Positions 45,846 through 51,682 of a stretch of 64,000 bases of DNA are shown here, piece after piece. The translations under genes and the position numbers were made by a program. A model generated the notes under the pieces. That model was given only the letters and a program-made list of their open reading frames with translations. It searched no databases and had not been told where the DNA came from. The stretch is from Niallia circulans (GTDB lineage: Bacteria > Bacillota > Bacilli > Bacillales > Cytobacillaceae), in assembly GCF_007273535.1 (NCBI RefSeq), contig NZ_RIBP01000004.1:3324001-3388000 (forward strand), read 5' to 3'. Position 1 is the stretch's first letter; the number at the start of each line of letters is the position of its first letter.

Positions 45846-47480
45846 TTAGTTGGACAGCTCTTTCAGCTTTTGTGTTAGTTCATTGAATTTAGCATCAAGC
45901 ACCGCATATTCTTTATCTTGTGGCAACATAAAGCTGAGCCTTCCTAAAATCTCTTGTCTTTCTGTTTCAAGCTTTAGCCTCAGCTCTTTTTTGTCATCTC
46001 TTGTAGGTGCATGACTTTGCCATTGTTTGCGAATTCCTGTATCTGTTATCACTAATTGGCTAGTTGTTGTTTTCTCAAGGAAATAGCGATCATGGGACAC
46101 GATAAGTAACGTTCCATTATATTGAGCCAACGTCTCCTCCAGCTGCTCACGCGAAGCAAGGTCAAGGTGATTGGTAGGTTCATCCAACAGTAAGACGTCC
46201 TTATCATCTAGTATATAGGCCATTAACTTGCATTTGACACGCTCCCCCATACTCATTGACTCAATCGGTTCCCTCCATTGAGCTGCCGTGAATCCCAAAT
46301 GCTTCATTAACGTCTGAACCCTTCCTCTCTCTTCGAAGGTTTCCTTATAAAATAGCTGCTCTGGTGTTGAATCAAGTGGCAAATCAAATACCTCCTGTGA
46401 TAAATAGCCAATATTGGCTGCAGGTGACATCCAAATATCCCCTTTTCCAACAACACTTCCGGCAATCATTTTCAACAATGTAGACTTACCGCTGCCATTT
46501 GCACCTGTCAGGGCAATTCTTTCTCCATGTTTTATCGTAAAATGTACATCCTTAAACAAGGTCCGTTCACCAAATGATTTCGTCAGCCCTTTCACTTCTA
46601 AAAACCGTTTGCCAACCTTATTGCTTGCTGTTATGGAAAACTGAACAGAATGCTCCTCTGTAACAGGCTCCACGTTACGCTTTGCGAGTTCCTTTTCTAA
46701 TCGTTTTTGTTTTGATTTTACTTGAGCATCCATCCGCTTTGCTTTAACACGATAGTATTCTTTCATGCCTTCTTTTTTTGTTGACTGTGCATGAGCTTTT
46801 TGTGACCATGTATTCAACTCTTTTATTTGACCTTGAATTTGTTCTGTCAATTTTTGCTGTTTTTCATATTCTCGTTGCTGCACCAACCTTTTCGCATTGC
46901 GGGCCTTCATAAAGTCAGAATAATTCCCCTTATGCTCTATAAGCTTCTTATCCTCAATTGCCCAGATTTTTGAGGCAACGGCATCAAGAAAATAGCGGTC
47001 GTGGGACACTAAAATTATCGTTCCTTTATATTCCTTTATCTGTTTCTGCAGTAAATCAAGACTTTGGCTGTCAAGGTGATTCGTCGGTTCGTCTAACAGC
47101 AGGAGATCAGCTCCAGTCGCAAAGCCTTGTGCAAGCCTGACTTTTAATTTTTCACCGCCGCTTAAATATTCATACGGTAAAACTGGCACAGACCATTTTT
47201 CAAGAAGCCTTGTTACATCGACTGATTTGTTTGCAGAGATATGTGTTTTTGCCTCTTGGATGACAATGGCAATATCCAAGCCTTGATTAAGCCACTGTAT
47301 TTGCCCGTCAGTAGGCTCTACATCCCCGTTTAATAAGTGGAGCAGCGTTGACTTACCAGCACCATTATTGCCGATAATTCCTACGACATCCTCTTCCTGC
47401 ACTGATGCTGTTACCTTGTCAAACAGGAGCTGATCTGCCACCTCATATTTGATATTATGCAATTTCATTAATTCTTTCAT
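45846..47480 (-). CDS. vmlR: ABC-F ribosomal protection protein (VmlR-type)
   Basis: The 544-residue protein has two ABC ATPase domains (Walker A GNNGAGKST near 38 and GANGSGKST near 330) and two LSGGE/MSMGE signatures. Two LLLDEPTNHLD Walker B motifs and a charged inter-domain linker (WSQKAHAQSTKKEGMKEYYR) complete the layout. It has no membrane domain. The sequence closely follows B. subtilis VmlR, which displaces lincosamides, streptogramin A and pleuromutilins from the ribosome. GAGGGATTG precedes the ATG. An attenuator leader lies directly upstream (47511-47690), as expected for drug-inducible expression. Confidence 0.92.
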   Translation of the reverse strand: MKELMKLHNIKYEVADQLLFDKVTASVQEEDVVGIIGNNGAGKSTLLHLLNGDVEPTDGQIQWLNQGLDIAIVIQEAKTHISANKSVDVTRLLEKWSVPVLPYEYLSGGEKLKVRLAQGFATGADLLLLDEPTNHLDSQSLDLLQKQIKEYKGTIILVSHDRYFLDAVASKIWAIEDKKLIEHKGNYSDFMKARNAKRLVQQREYEKQQKLTEQIQGQIKELNTWSQKAHAQSTKKEGMKEYYRVKAKRMDAQVKSKQKRLEKELAKRNVEPVTEEHSVQFSITASNKVGKRFLEVKGLTKSFGERTLFKDVHFTIKHGERIALTGANGSGKSTLLKMIAGSVVGKGDIWMSPAANIGYLSQEVFDLPLDSTPEQLFYKETFEERGRVQTLMKHLGFTAAQWREPIESMSMGERVKCKLMAYILDDKDVLLLDEPTNHLDLASREQLEETLAQYNGTLLIVSHDRYFLEKTTTSQLVITDTGIRKQWQSHAPTRDDKKELRLKLETERQEILGRLSFMLPQDKEYAVLDAKFNELTQKLKELSN

Positions 47481-47510: not shown

Positions 47511-47545
47511 AAAAAAATCCTCCCAAAATAAATTTTGGAAGGATT
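47511..47545 (-). terminator. Attenuator terminator in the vmlR leader
   Basis: On the minus strand AATCCTTCCAAAA pairs with TTTTGGGAGGATT (one wobble) and is followed by T7, 31 bases before the vmlR start. Its left arm overlaps the segment CTAATCC that can pair with an upstream GGATTAG (plus-strand 47608-47614). The terminator and antiterminator are therefore mutually exclusive. Confidence 0.85.
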
Positions 47546-47623
47546 AGCCGGACATTTTAAGCATCATAAATAAGCTGTCTAAAACAGCTATATAGAAAAT
47601 GGGCAGACTAATCCTACTTTAGT

Positions 47624-47686
47624 TTAATTTGCATTATGCATTTCAACTGAAAAAATAAGATTAGTTATCCATCGGCCACCCATCAT
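47624..47686 (-). CDS. vmlR leader peptide ORF
   Basis: A 20-codon ORF (MMGGRWITNLIFSVEMHNAN) begins at 47686 after AGAAAGG and ends before the antiterminator. Codons 8-10 (ACT AAT CTT) contain ACTAATC, which can pair with GATTAGT in the antiterminator's 5' arm. A ribosome stalled by drug in this ORF would free that arm and prevent termination. Confidence 0.7.
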   Translation of the reverse strand: MMGGRWITNLIFSVEMHNAN

Positions 47687-47797
47687 CCTTTCTGCTTTTG
47701 TAATATAAGTGTAGCATAACCTCTTTTTAGGATGCAATGGGCAATTCCGCAAAACAGGATAGGGTCCTCAATTAATAACAGTATTATCAAGCTGTCG

Positions 47798-50011: not shown

Positions 50012-50950
50012 TTAAAATAATCGTTTTCTCCGTAAGACAATCGCTGTCAGGCAGGACAAAACAAATGAAATTGCTAACGCTACAAAAAAAGCATGCTTAT
50101 ATTCTTGAAATGGTATGTTAACATTCATTCCATAAAAGCTTGCGACTATTGTTGGAAGGGAAAGGACTATTGTAACAGATGTTAAGAATTTCATAACCAT
50201 GCTGACATTATTCGAAATAATCGACGCAAATGCGTCCATCATACCGCTTAAAATTGACGCATGTGTTTGAGCCATCTCTATCGCCTGCTGATTTTCAATA
50301 ATAACATCCTCCAGCAAATCTTGATCATCTTCGTACATTTTTAAAAATCTGGTATTCATCATCTTATTCATGACAATATTATTCGATTTAAGTGATGTTG
50401 TAAAATAAACAAGACTTTTTTGTAGATGAAGAAGAGAAAACAGCTCCTTGTTTTTCATTGATTGCAGAAGCTGGTCTTCAATTGTGTCAATCTTTTTACT
50501 GATTTGTTTAAGATATTTCAAATAAGACGTAGACATGCTATACAGTATTTGGAATGCAAATCTTGTTCTTTTATACGTAAAGAAATCCTTAACTTTTCCT
50601 TGGGAAAAAGCATGAAAAATCGGATTATCCTTGAGACAAATTGTCACAAAACAATTTTTGGCAATGATAATTCCTAAAGGAATTGTATCATACGTTGGTT
50701 TTTTCTTATCATCAAAGGTTACGGATGGAATGTTGACAATTATTAAAATATCATCGCCATCTTTTTCTATCCTTGAACGTTCCTCTTCATCCAAAGAATC
50801 CTTTAAAAATTCAATTGGAATATCAAGCTCTGCTGCAATGTACTGAATCTCCTGCTCTTTTGGAGCAACTAGATTAATCCAGCAGCCGCTCGTAATTTTA
50901 TTCGTTTCTTTAAGTACTCCTTCTTCGTTAGAAAGATAAATATTTAACAT
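50012..50950 (-). CDS. corA: CorA family Mg2+ channel (YfjQ-like)
   Basis: The 312-residue protein is a CorA-type divalent cation channel. It has a large cytosolic domain with a long stalk helix and two C-terminal membrane helices. The signature GMN is in VASFYGMNVNIPFQ near residue 273, between the helices. I chose the ATG at 50950, with GAGGAGG 7 bases upstream; the longer frame to 51013 lies inside the regulatory leader. The overall sequence resembles B. subtilis YfjQ. Its ribosome-binding site can be sequestered by the leader (50957-51101). Confidence 0.92.
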   Translation of the reverse strand: MLNIYLSNEEGVLKETNKITSGCWINLVAPKEQEIQYIAAELDIPIEFLKDSLDEEERSRIEKDGDDILIIVNIPSVTFDDKKKPTYDTIPLGIIIAKNCFVTICLKDNPIFHAFSQGKVKDFFTYKRTRFAFQILYSMSTSYLKYLKQISKKIDTIEDQLLQSMKNKELFSLLHLQKSLVYFTTSLKSNNIVMNKMMNTRFLKMYEDDQDLLEDVIIENQQAIEMAQTHASILSGMMDAFASIISNNVSMVMKFLTSVTIVLSLPTIVASFYGMNVNIPFQEYKHAFFVALAISFVLSCLTAIVLRRKRLF

Positions 50951-50956
50951 GGTAAA

Positions 50957-51054
50957 ACCTCCTCTTATTGTGAGGAAGTCAAATGCGTTGCCATAAACAA
51001 GCTGAATTTTCACTCGTATTCAAAATTAAACGGAATGACTCCTTATTGACTTCC
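50957..51054 (-). promoter_or_regulatory. Switchable secondary structure in the corA leader
   Basis: On the minus-strand RNA, CUUCCUC (50972-50978) can pair with the SD sequence GAGGAGG (50958-50964), giving 7 pairs including one G-U, and would hide it. The same region as UUGACUUCC (50974-50982) is perfectly complementary over 9 bases to GGAAGUCAA (51046-51054) inside the leader ORF. The two pairings exclude each other. Confidence 0.6.
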
Positions 51055-51101
51055 CCCTGTCTCGACTCGGGCTCAGGTTCACTGCAATAATGACTACTCA
51101 T
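50979..51101 (-). CDS. corA leader peptide ORF with Glu-Pro repeat
   Basis: A 40-codon ORF starts at ATG 51101, with AAAGGAG 10 bases upstream, and ends 28 bases before the corA start. The peptide begins MSSHYCSEPEPESRQGEV; residues 8-12 alternate Glu and Pro. Such acidic-proline stretches destabilise ribosomes at low Mg2+ in the E. coli MgtL leader. The codons right after it form the GGAAGUCAA switch segment, and the stop codon lies in its partner segment. Confidence 0.65.
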   Translation of the reverse strand: MSSHYCSEPEPESRQGEVNKESFRLILNTSENSACLWQRI

Positions 51102-51143
51102 AAAAATTCAACTCCTTTGGTTTCTGTTTTAAAACACTATTAC

Positions 51144-51171
51144 ATTTTACTTGAATTCTTTATTTTTGCAA
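51144..51171 (-). promoter_or_regulatory. Putative promoter of the corA leader
   Basis: Read on the minus strand, TTGCAA (51166-51171) and TAAAAT (51144-51149) are spaced by 16 bases, about 35-40 bases upstream of the leader ORF. It fits a sigma-A promoter. Confidence 0.5.
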
Positions 51172-51343: not shown

Positions 51344-51682
51344 TTAAAAAGCAATTCCTAAAGAGCAGCCTAACGGAGTCCAAATAAACTGCATGGTTTC
51401 TATATATTCAGGTCGTATAAAGAGGTCTAACAAAAAGGAAAACAAAGTTAAGATCATAAACCATTTTATAAATTTAATTGTCCTATTCCTAATTTCCACC
51501 TTGCCTGCTTTTTTCCAATAAAAGAAAGATAGTACCAAAAGATATAACACATACAGGAATAAAAATAAAAGATACCCATACAAAACTACATGTGAATTAT
51601 TTTCCACAAAAACTAGCACCGTTGCTATCACAAACAACACAAATAAGAGCCTATTTAACCAAACAATCTTTTGCACTAACAT
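51344..51682 (-). CDS. Membrane protein of unknown function
   Basis: The 112-residue protein has three to four hydrophobic helices (LNRLLFVLFVIATVLVF, YGYLLFLFLYVLYLLVL, FIKWFMILTLFSFLLDL) and no soluble domain. AAGGAGT precedes the ATG. No family recognised. Confidence 0.65.
   Translation of the reverse strand: MLVQKIVWLNRLLFVLFVIATVLVFVENNSHVVLYGYLLFLFLYVLYLLVLSFFYWKKAGKVEIRNRTIKFIKWFMILTLFSFLLDLFIRPEYIETMQFIWTPLGCSLGIAF

Follow-up and report, generated by a model that had tools for sequence, protein, structure and literature searches.

Results

A leader open reading frame with acidic-proline codons precedes corA

The window analysed here is a stretch of 64,000 nucleotides from Niallia circulans (contig NZ_RIBP01000004.1, positions 3,324,001 to 3,388,000). 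On its minus strand, a gene for a CorA-type Mg2+ channel with an ATG start codon at 50950 is preceded by a short ORF, which ends 28 nt before the corA start and encodes the 40-aa peptide MSSHYCSEPEPESRQGEVNKESFRLILNTSENSACLWQRI. The original prediction had described a 40-codon leader with its own AAAGGAG Shine-Dalgarno (SD) site and Glu-Pro-Glu-Pro-Glu at residues 8-12 (51080-51066), and both can be read directly in the sequence. The features of the locus, together with the helices introduced below, are as follows.

50012..50950, minus strand: corA (312 aa, CorA Mg2+ channel family; Pfam PF01544, E 3.7e-59)
50957..50964, minus strand: corA SD GAGGAGGU, which is also the 3' arm of helix H3 (sequence and RNAalifold)
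50972..50982, minus strand: 3' arm of helix H2, UUGACUUCCUC (sequence, pair counts)
50979..51101, minus strand: leader ORF, 40 codons (ORF list; related leaders in relatives)
50999..51022, minus strand: 3' arm of helix H1, late leader (RNAalifold, minimum-energy fold, pair count)
51046..51056, minus strand: 5' arm of H2, GGGGAAGUCAA, directly behind the motif (sequence, pair counts)
51066..51080, minus strand: Glu-Pro-Glu-Pro-Glu codons, leader codons 8-12 (sequence; [ED]P[ED]P in 104 of 105 alignment rows)
51091..51114, minus strand: 5' arm of H1, comprising leader SD, start codon and first codons (RNAalifold, minimum-energy fold; first ten pairs in the pair count)
51112..51118, minus strand: leader SD AAAGGAG (read in the sequence)
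51144..51171, minus strand: candidate promoter TTGCAA-16-TAAAAT (consensus match only, 9/12)

Promoter-like sites number 20 in the scanned region compared with 11.2 in shuffled sequence. At gathering thresholds, no Rfam family matched the corA-leader locus, and the M-box (RF00380) did not score above its gathering threshold in the window or anywhere in the whole genome, with the B. subtilis control being positive. The M-box and all other Rfam families were therefore rejected as an identity for the locus, in agreement with the predicted absence of the M-box. An intrinsic terminator in the leader was ruled out as well, the sole terminator-like site sitting inside corA. Two further observations concern the neighbourhood on the same strand: a 112-aa ORF without Pfam match lies upstream of the corA leader (51344-51682), and a match to RF02452 (Bacillus sRNA ncr1575, 124.9 bits) at 47511-47704 adjoins an ORF (45846-47480) that was labelled as ABC-type ATPase from reading its translation.

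Three predicted helices in the leader and at the corA ribosome site

Behind the motif, GGAAGUCAA (51054-51046) is perfectly complementary to UUGACUUCC (50982-50974), which overlaps the leader stop. This is the nine-base complement claimed at the outset, and it forms the core of H2. Within the 3' arm of H2, CUUCCUC doubles as the corA anti-SD, that is the 5' arm of H3, and pairs with the corA SD GAGGAGG (50964-50958); the alternative pairing of seven pairs proposed for this segment is therefore also present. A longer helix, H1, did not appear in the first account and joins the SD and start of the leader itself to the late leader. In the minimum-energy fold of the empty RNA, H3 and H1 are formed, while H2 competes with H3 and crosses H1. 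The stability of the fold corresponds to a z of -2.9, and none of 200 dinucleotide shuffles was as stable.

The element is conserved in the genus and the family

Close corA orthologues were found in 12 of 13 genus genomes, the 13th (G005) having a distant CorA only, and all 12 carry a leader with E-P-[E/D]-P-E, both H2 arms and the SD. A covariance model (R1) was built from 10 of these 12 leaders, with the duplicates L008 and L011 left out. Run on the 193 family genomes, it matched 111 of them, spread over 13 of 25 genera; the matches numbered 114, including two weak ones (E about 0.009). We first fetched 110 matches, leaving out G121, G166 and the two weak ones, and each of the 110 is located directly upstream of corA. 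The match in G121 adjoins corA by its coordinates, and the leader is present in that of G166 (L148). L089 and L115 have a disturbed corA frame; in G175 (L115/L151), an intact leader stands before the broken reading frame.

The converse search found corA at E <= 1e-60 in 116 of 193 family genomes. Three were set apart, as G054 and G059 belong to another CorA clade (39% identity) and G091 is a fragment, and 110 of the remaining 113 have an R1 match. The last three genomes (G078, G122 and G124) have no R1 match, yet a leader sequence is visible on reading; in G124 (L147), an insertion of some 130 nt separates the motif from the later arms. Absence from relatives had been named as the observation that would speak against the prediction, and the opposite was found, with matches in 111 of 193 family genomes and the motif in 104 of 105 aligned leaders. 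We regard it as a real and widespread regulatory element.

The acidic-proline motif is kept as amino acids, the later leader as RNA

For an alignment (A2), elements were gathered by RNA similarity without using the motif for selection, and after removal of identical elements (L037, L040, L082, L094, L111) 105 distinct ones remained. In 104 of them, [ED]P[ED]P stands in frame and early in the leader, in the forms DPDP (60), EPDP (25), EPEP (15) and DPEP (4), with its first residue at codon 6 (78), codon 8 (25) or codon 4 (1). The sole exception is L126, which reads EPEL, has a weak SD and belongs to the second corA copy of G038. The leaders start with UUG (92) or AUG (12) and are 31-49 codons long. 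The third position of the motif codons is free, all four proline codons occur at both proline sites, and Glu and Asp exchange. From these sequences, the feature that is kept is the acidic-Pro-acidic-Pro series rather than a given tRNA.

In 102 of the 104 elements, the 5' arm of H2 follows the motif at an offset of 11 nt (66), 14 nt (31) or 20 nt (5), which is approximately the front edge of a motif-paused ribosome with an assumed footprint of +15 nt. The frame shifts between motif and H2 arm in L050 and L087, yet the arm is intact, which argues that the later part of the leader is kept as RNA. Relative to the anti-SD start, the leader stop ranges from 14 nt upstream to 44 nt downstream. Altogether, the locus shows the composition of the acidic/proline Mg2+ leaders: a short ORF with early acidic and proline codons before a Mg2+ transporter gene.

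Paired changes in the helices

Over the 21 pairs of H1 and H2 in A2, 96.6% of the cells hold standard pairs compared with 94.5 +/- 0.2 after shuffling, and sliding the partner by 1-3 columns lowers the paired cells to 33-55%. Using shuffles that ignore the relatedness among the sequences, we counted 29 double-change cells against 6.0 +/- 2.2 (0 of 500 shuffles as high), and 5 of 21 pairs with a double change against 3.3 +/- 1.0 (42 of 500 shuffles as high). Two of these pairs are in H1 (10 cells each) and largely split the AUG-start group from the others, so that they represent few independent events; the three in H2 comprise 2, 4 and 3 cells. H3 is 99.5% paired and nearly invariant with one double change, and covariation therefore says little for this helix. 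Of the two pairings for which covariation had been envisaged, H2 shows paired changes and H3 hardly varies.

In other families, H1 is formed from unrelated yet complementary sequence, as with CGUUUUCGUAU/AUACGAAAACG of L204, and H2 and H3 of L210 carry matching changes, both given with no chance control. The underlying search for the longest complement serves as illustration only, some of the helices being short (L190 H1, H2 7; L322 H2 6).

A ribosome paused at the motif is predicted to open the corA SD

We scanned the fold of 104 elements with a ribosome masked at different codons, pseudoknots being unscored. In the empty RNA, H1 (0.96) and H3 (0.98) are formed and the mean accessibility of the corA SD is 0.018, and a ribosome at the leader start gives 0.30. 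With the P-site at the first proline and everything on the 5' side blocked, accessibility reaches 0.556 (H2 0.79), compared with 0.010 for a ribosome four codons past the second proline. This gain from the 'past' to the 'paused' state exceeded 0.2 in 85.6% of the real elements, but in only 3.8% of controls in which the stretch behind the motif was shuffled (n=104 each).

In a codon-by-codon scan of 12 elements, again with the 5' side blocked, mean accessibility was 0.19-0.43 while the ribosome was still short of the motif and 0.47-0.56 while it moved from the first acidic codon to the third codon of the motif. The mean fell to 0.23 at the fourth motif codon and to 0.02 two codons beyond the last Pro of the motif plus one; one of the 12 (L031) showed no opening at the motif. 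With the ribosome near the end of the leader, the SD reopened in all 12 (0.47 or more), and in five of them the last leader codons then place the ribosome over the SD. As the leader-end ribosome also opens the SD, kinetics matter, and in this fold model each completed passage of the leader may cause a short opening. When only the footprint was masked and the 5' side left free, H1 re-formed and accessibility at the first proline was 0.089; the model therefore requires that the leader start be occupied or that a pseudoknot form.

The original prediction had a ribosome either lost or paused at the Glu-Pro codons opening corA. Pausing agrees with the fold scan, but ribosome loss alone would leave corA shut in a nested fold, since H1 and H3 keep the two ribosome sites closed when the RNA is empty (SD accessibility 0.018). 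Given the closed re-folding and the opening at the leader end, we amended the model: the strong ON state would arise when a ribosome starts the leader and fails to pass the motif. Alternative structures that are set by the ribosome, one of them closing a downstream signal, are a further trait of the acidic/proline Mg2+ leaders, present here by prediction and pair counts only.

Distribution beyond the family

A second covariance model (R2), built from A2, matched 84 of 397 order genomes (13 from the window's family) and 29 of 136 genera, as well as 13 of 398 class genomes, eight of them from the same order. We inspected 56 order loci outside the family after dropping L192. Among these, 49 precede corA (47 by script and, by eye, L176 and L191), a DUF1003-type gene follows in six cases, and one (L216) is false. 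The script found the strict motif in 28 of the 49 corA leaders, and reading the sequence of L180 revealed DPEP there. In the remaining 20, which come mainly from families f15 and f42, the motif is weaker (such as DPEGP, DPDT or NPDPE) or its acidic and proline residues are scattered. From the class search, L322 is an EPDP leader before corA. The weak matches L327, L329 and L330 outside the order were, like L216, taken as false, being without leader or target gene.

Among the best 80 named records with a related CorA, 49 have a strict-motif leader by a pattern that allows wider spacing, a stricter one missing the Geobacillus/Anoxybacillus leaders. The genera represented are Niallia, Rossellomorea, Metabacillus, Neobacillus, Peribacillus, Geobacillus and Anoxybacillus, and three Paenibacillus records have such a leader too. 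Neither motif nor arms were found in those of the best 80 that come from Ectobacillus, Gottfriedia, Fictibacillus, Desulfosporosinus and Methanosarcina. The CorA of the Niallia taxi record (L228) is 98% identical to that of the window. Three Methanosarcina-type loci without leader (L290, L291, L300) encode a CorA that is 51-53% identical to the window's, for which a transfer between domains is possible.

The target genes of the leader follow M-boxes in relatives

The same architecture stands before a DUF1003 gene in six order loci (L196, L198, L205, L206, L207, L209) and one class locus (L324, VPEP); the gene was assigned by Pfam in L205 and by sequence similarity in the others. Neither the DUF1003 protein nor the M-box model had a match in the 13 genus genomes. 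In the family, the M-box is rare (29 matches in 24 of 193 genomes). Among the 24 matches that were read, seven precede DUF1003 genes (by Pfam; L302, L303, L304, L305, L311, L319, L142), two lie some 320-350 nt before a corA of the other clade (G054, G059), six precede mgtE (assigned by Pfam in two cases and by the N-terminus in four), four stand before an FtsW/RodA gene (L307 by Pfam; L308, L309, L312 by N-terminus) and one before an Nramp gene, with four left without an assigned gene.

DUF1003 and corA genes thus both follow M-boxes in relatives, so that both kinds of leader target are M-box genes there. This is the main argument for Mg2+ as the signal, and it suggests that DUF1003 takes part in Mg2+ homeostasis. 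The M-box resembles the leader in preceding corA and DUF1003 genes in relatives; it differs in being an ion-binding RNA and has no match in the window's genome. A strict mutual exclusion of the two was rejected, since ten family genomes match both models (G077, G080, G113, G115, G121, G125, G135, G137, G144, G173); G078 and G122 combine an M-box with a leader seen on reading.

Discussion

Leader-peptide sensing of Mg2+ is known from enteric bacteria. Among the titles and abstract openings found by searching open-licence PMC papers, there was no Gram-positive report and no earlier description of a leader peptide before corA in Bacillales; one paper deals with Mg2+ transporters of B. subtilis (PMC4072509). 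Both mgtL and mgtQ are reported as acidic/proline uORFs that act in this way (PMC11282234, PMC8092293, PMC11552253).

Like the present leader, the mgtQ uORF before Salmonella mgtB is short, has acidic codons near its start and precedes the gene of a Mg2+ importer; alternative stem-loops form, one of which hides the downstream ribosome site until poor leader translation opens it (PMC8092293). In contrast, mgtQ is an 8-residue ORF inside a Gram-negative operon, whereas 31-49 codons stand at the front of corA here, with a tandem acidic-Pro motif and an additional helix that covers the start of the leader itself. The mgtL leader of mgtA in Salmonella and E. coli has EPDP near its N terminus, as do 25 of the 104 leaders here, and when Mg2+ is low, its poor translation increases expression of the importer (PMC11282234, PMC11552253). 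Its output in Salmonella is described as Rho-dependent transcription, in contrast to the SD sequestration predicted here for a leader without intrinsic-terminator-like site. The corL/corA motif of Gammaproteobacteria shares a uORF in the corA 5' region (beginning with UUG in E. coli), a predicted stem hiding the uORF SD and leader translation inverse to corA, but has few proline or acidic residues and a Rho-dependent output (PMC11552253, PMC6429828). Reports of this motif come from Gammaproteobacteria and metagenomic DNA; no Rfam family matches the locus studied here. By prediction, the element described here works like mgtQ and mgtL.

Conservation, motif, paired changes, fold behaviour and gene association were established by computation; we infer Mg2+ as the signal, drop-off or pausing as the event and translation as the level of control. 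The element is very probably a cis-acting leader-peptide switch controlling corA translation. It is likely to report Mg2+ by way of the acidic-proline codons, and the switch would then work as follows. Ribosomes would load on the short leader ORF, whose early [Glu/Asp]-Pro-[Glu/Asp]-Pro is a stalling or destabilising type of sequence. At ample Mg2+, the ribosome would pass the motif and cover the 5' arm of H2, H3 would keep the anti-SD on the corA SD, and corA would be mostly off. At low Mg2+, ribosomes would pause at or fall off the acidic-proline codons with the leader start remaining occupied; H1 would then be barred, GGAAGUCAA would capture UUGACUUCC in H2, and the freed SD would turn corA on. 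If no ribosome is loaded, H1 would shut the leader site and H3 would shut corA.

The same switch could follow another signal, namely the resolution of Asp/Glu-Pro stalls (by EF-P, YfmR or another ABC-F protein) or the supply of prolyl-tRNA, so that corA would follow translation capacity. According to two reports, Asp-Pro repeats stall B. subtilis ribosomes lacking EF-P and YfmR can relieve the stall without EF-P (PMC11381351), and EttA acts on MgtL (PMC11282234); DPDP is also the commonest motif in our set (60 of 104). Prolyl-tRNA sensing, however, would leave unexplained that acidic residues are kept while Glu/Asp and the four proline codons exchange, and M-boxes target the same two kinds of gene, corA and DUF1003, in relatives. 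We regard this alternative as unlikely.

Translational coupling would assign the opening of the corA SD to a leader-end ribosome that covers the anti-SD, with the motif only lowering the leader yield. Such a ribosome did free the SD in 12 of 12 scanned elements (0.47 or more), and the leader stop precedes the corA SD in the window. In five of the 12, however, the last codons put the ribosome over the SD, the stop is not fixed but falls between 14 nt before and 44 nt after the anti-SD start, and coupling would leave the conserved H2 pairing unexplained and would lower Mg2+ import when translation fails, which makes it improbable to our mind. A direct Mg2+ riboswitch acting by RNA folding, with an incidental ORF, would fit the conserved helices, but no Rfam family matches the locus and the in-frame acidic-proline codons would have no explanation; we consider it very improbable. 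Chance ORF and complementarity, for which only the short length speaks, are ruled out for practical purposes by the conservation in many genera and the slid and shuffled controls.

Taken together, the best explanation, which we hold with fair confidence, is a Mg2+ sensor in the form of a leader peptide that acts on translation; it would be the Gram-positive counterpart to Salmonella mgtL and mgtQ, with an RNA architecture of its own. On balance, we lean slightly towards a broader reading. The element would represent a Gram-positive class of Mg2+ sensors in many families of the order, with the ribosome as detector and a three-helix gate on corA and DUF1003; it may be independent of Gram-negative mgtL, mgtQ and corL, and ribosome-based and aptamer-based sensing would have replaced one another at the same genes. 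With well over a hundred naturally occurring versions that differ in motif, spacing and helices, the idea that acidic-proline nascent chains signal Mg2+ via the stability of the ribosome can be tested directly in Bacillus subtilis. If it is true, the nascent-chain trick of mgtL would be a more general solution, the control of corA would be explained in genera without an M-box, and DUF1003, a domain of unknown function, would be tied to Mg2+ homeostasis.
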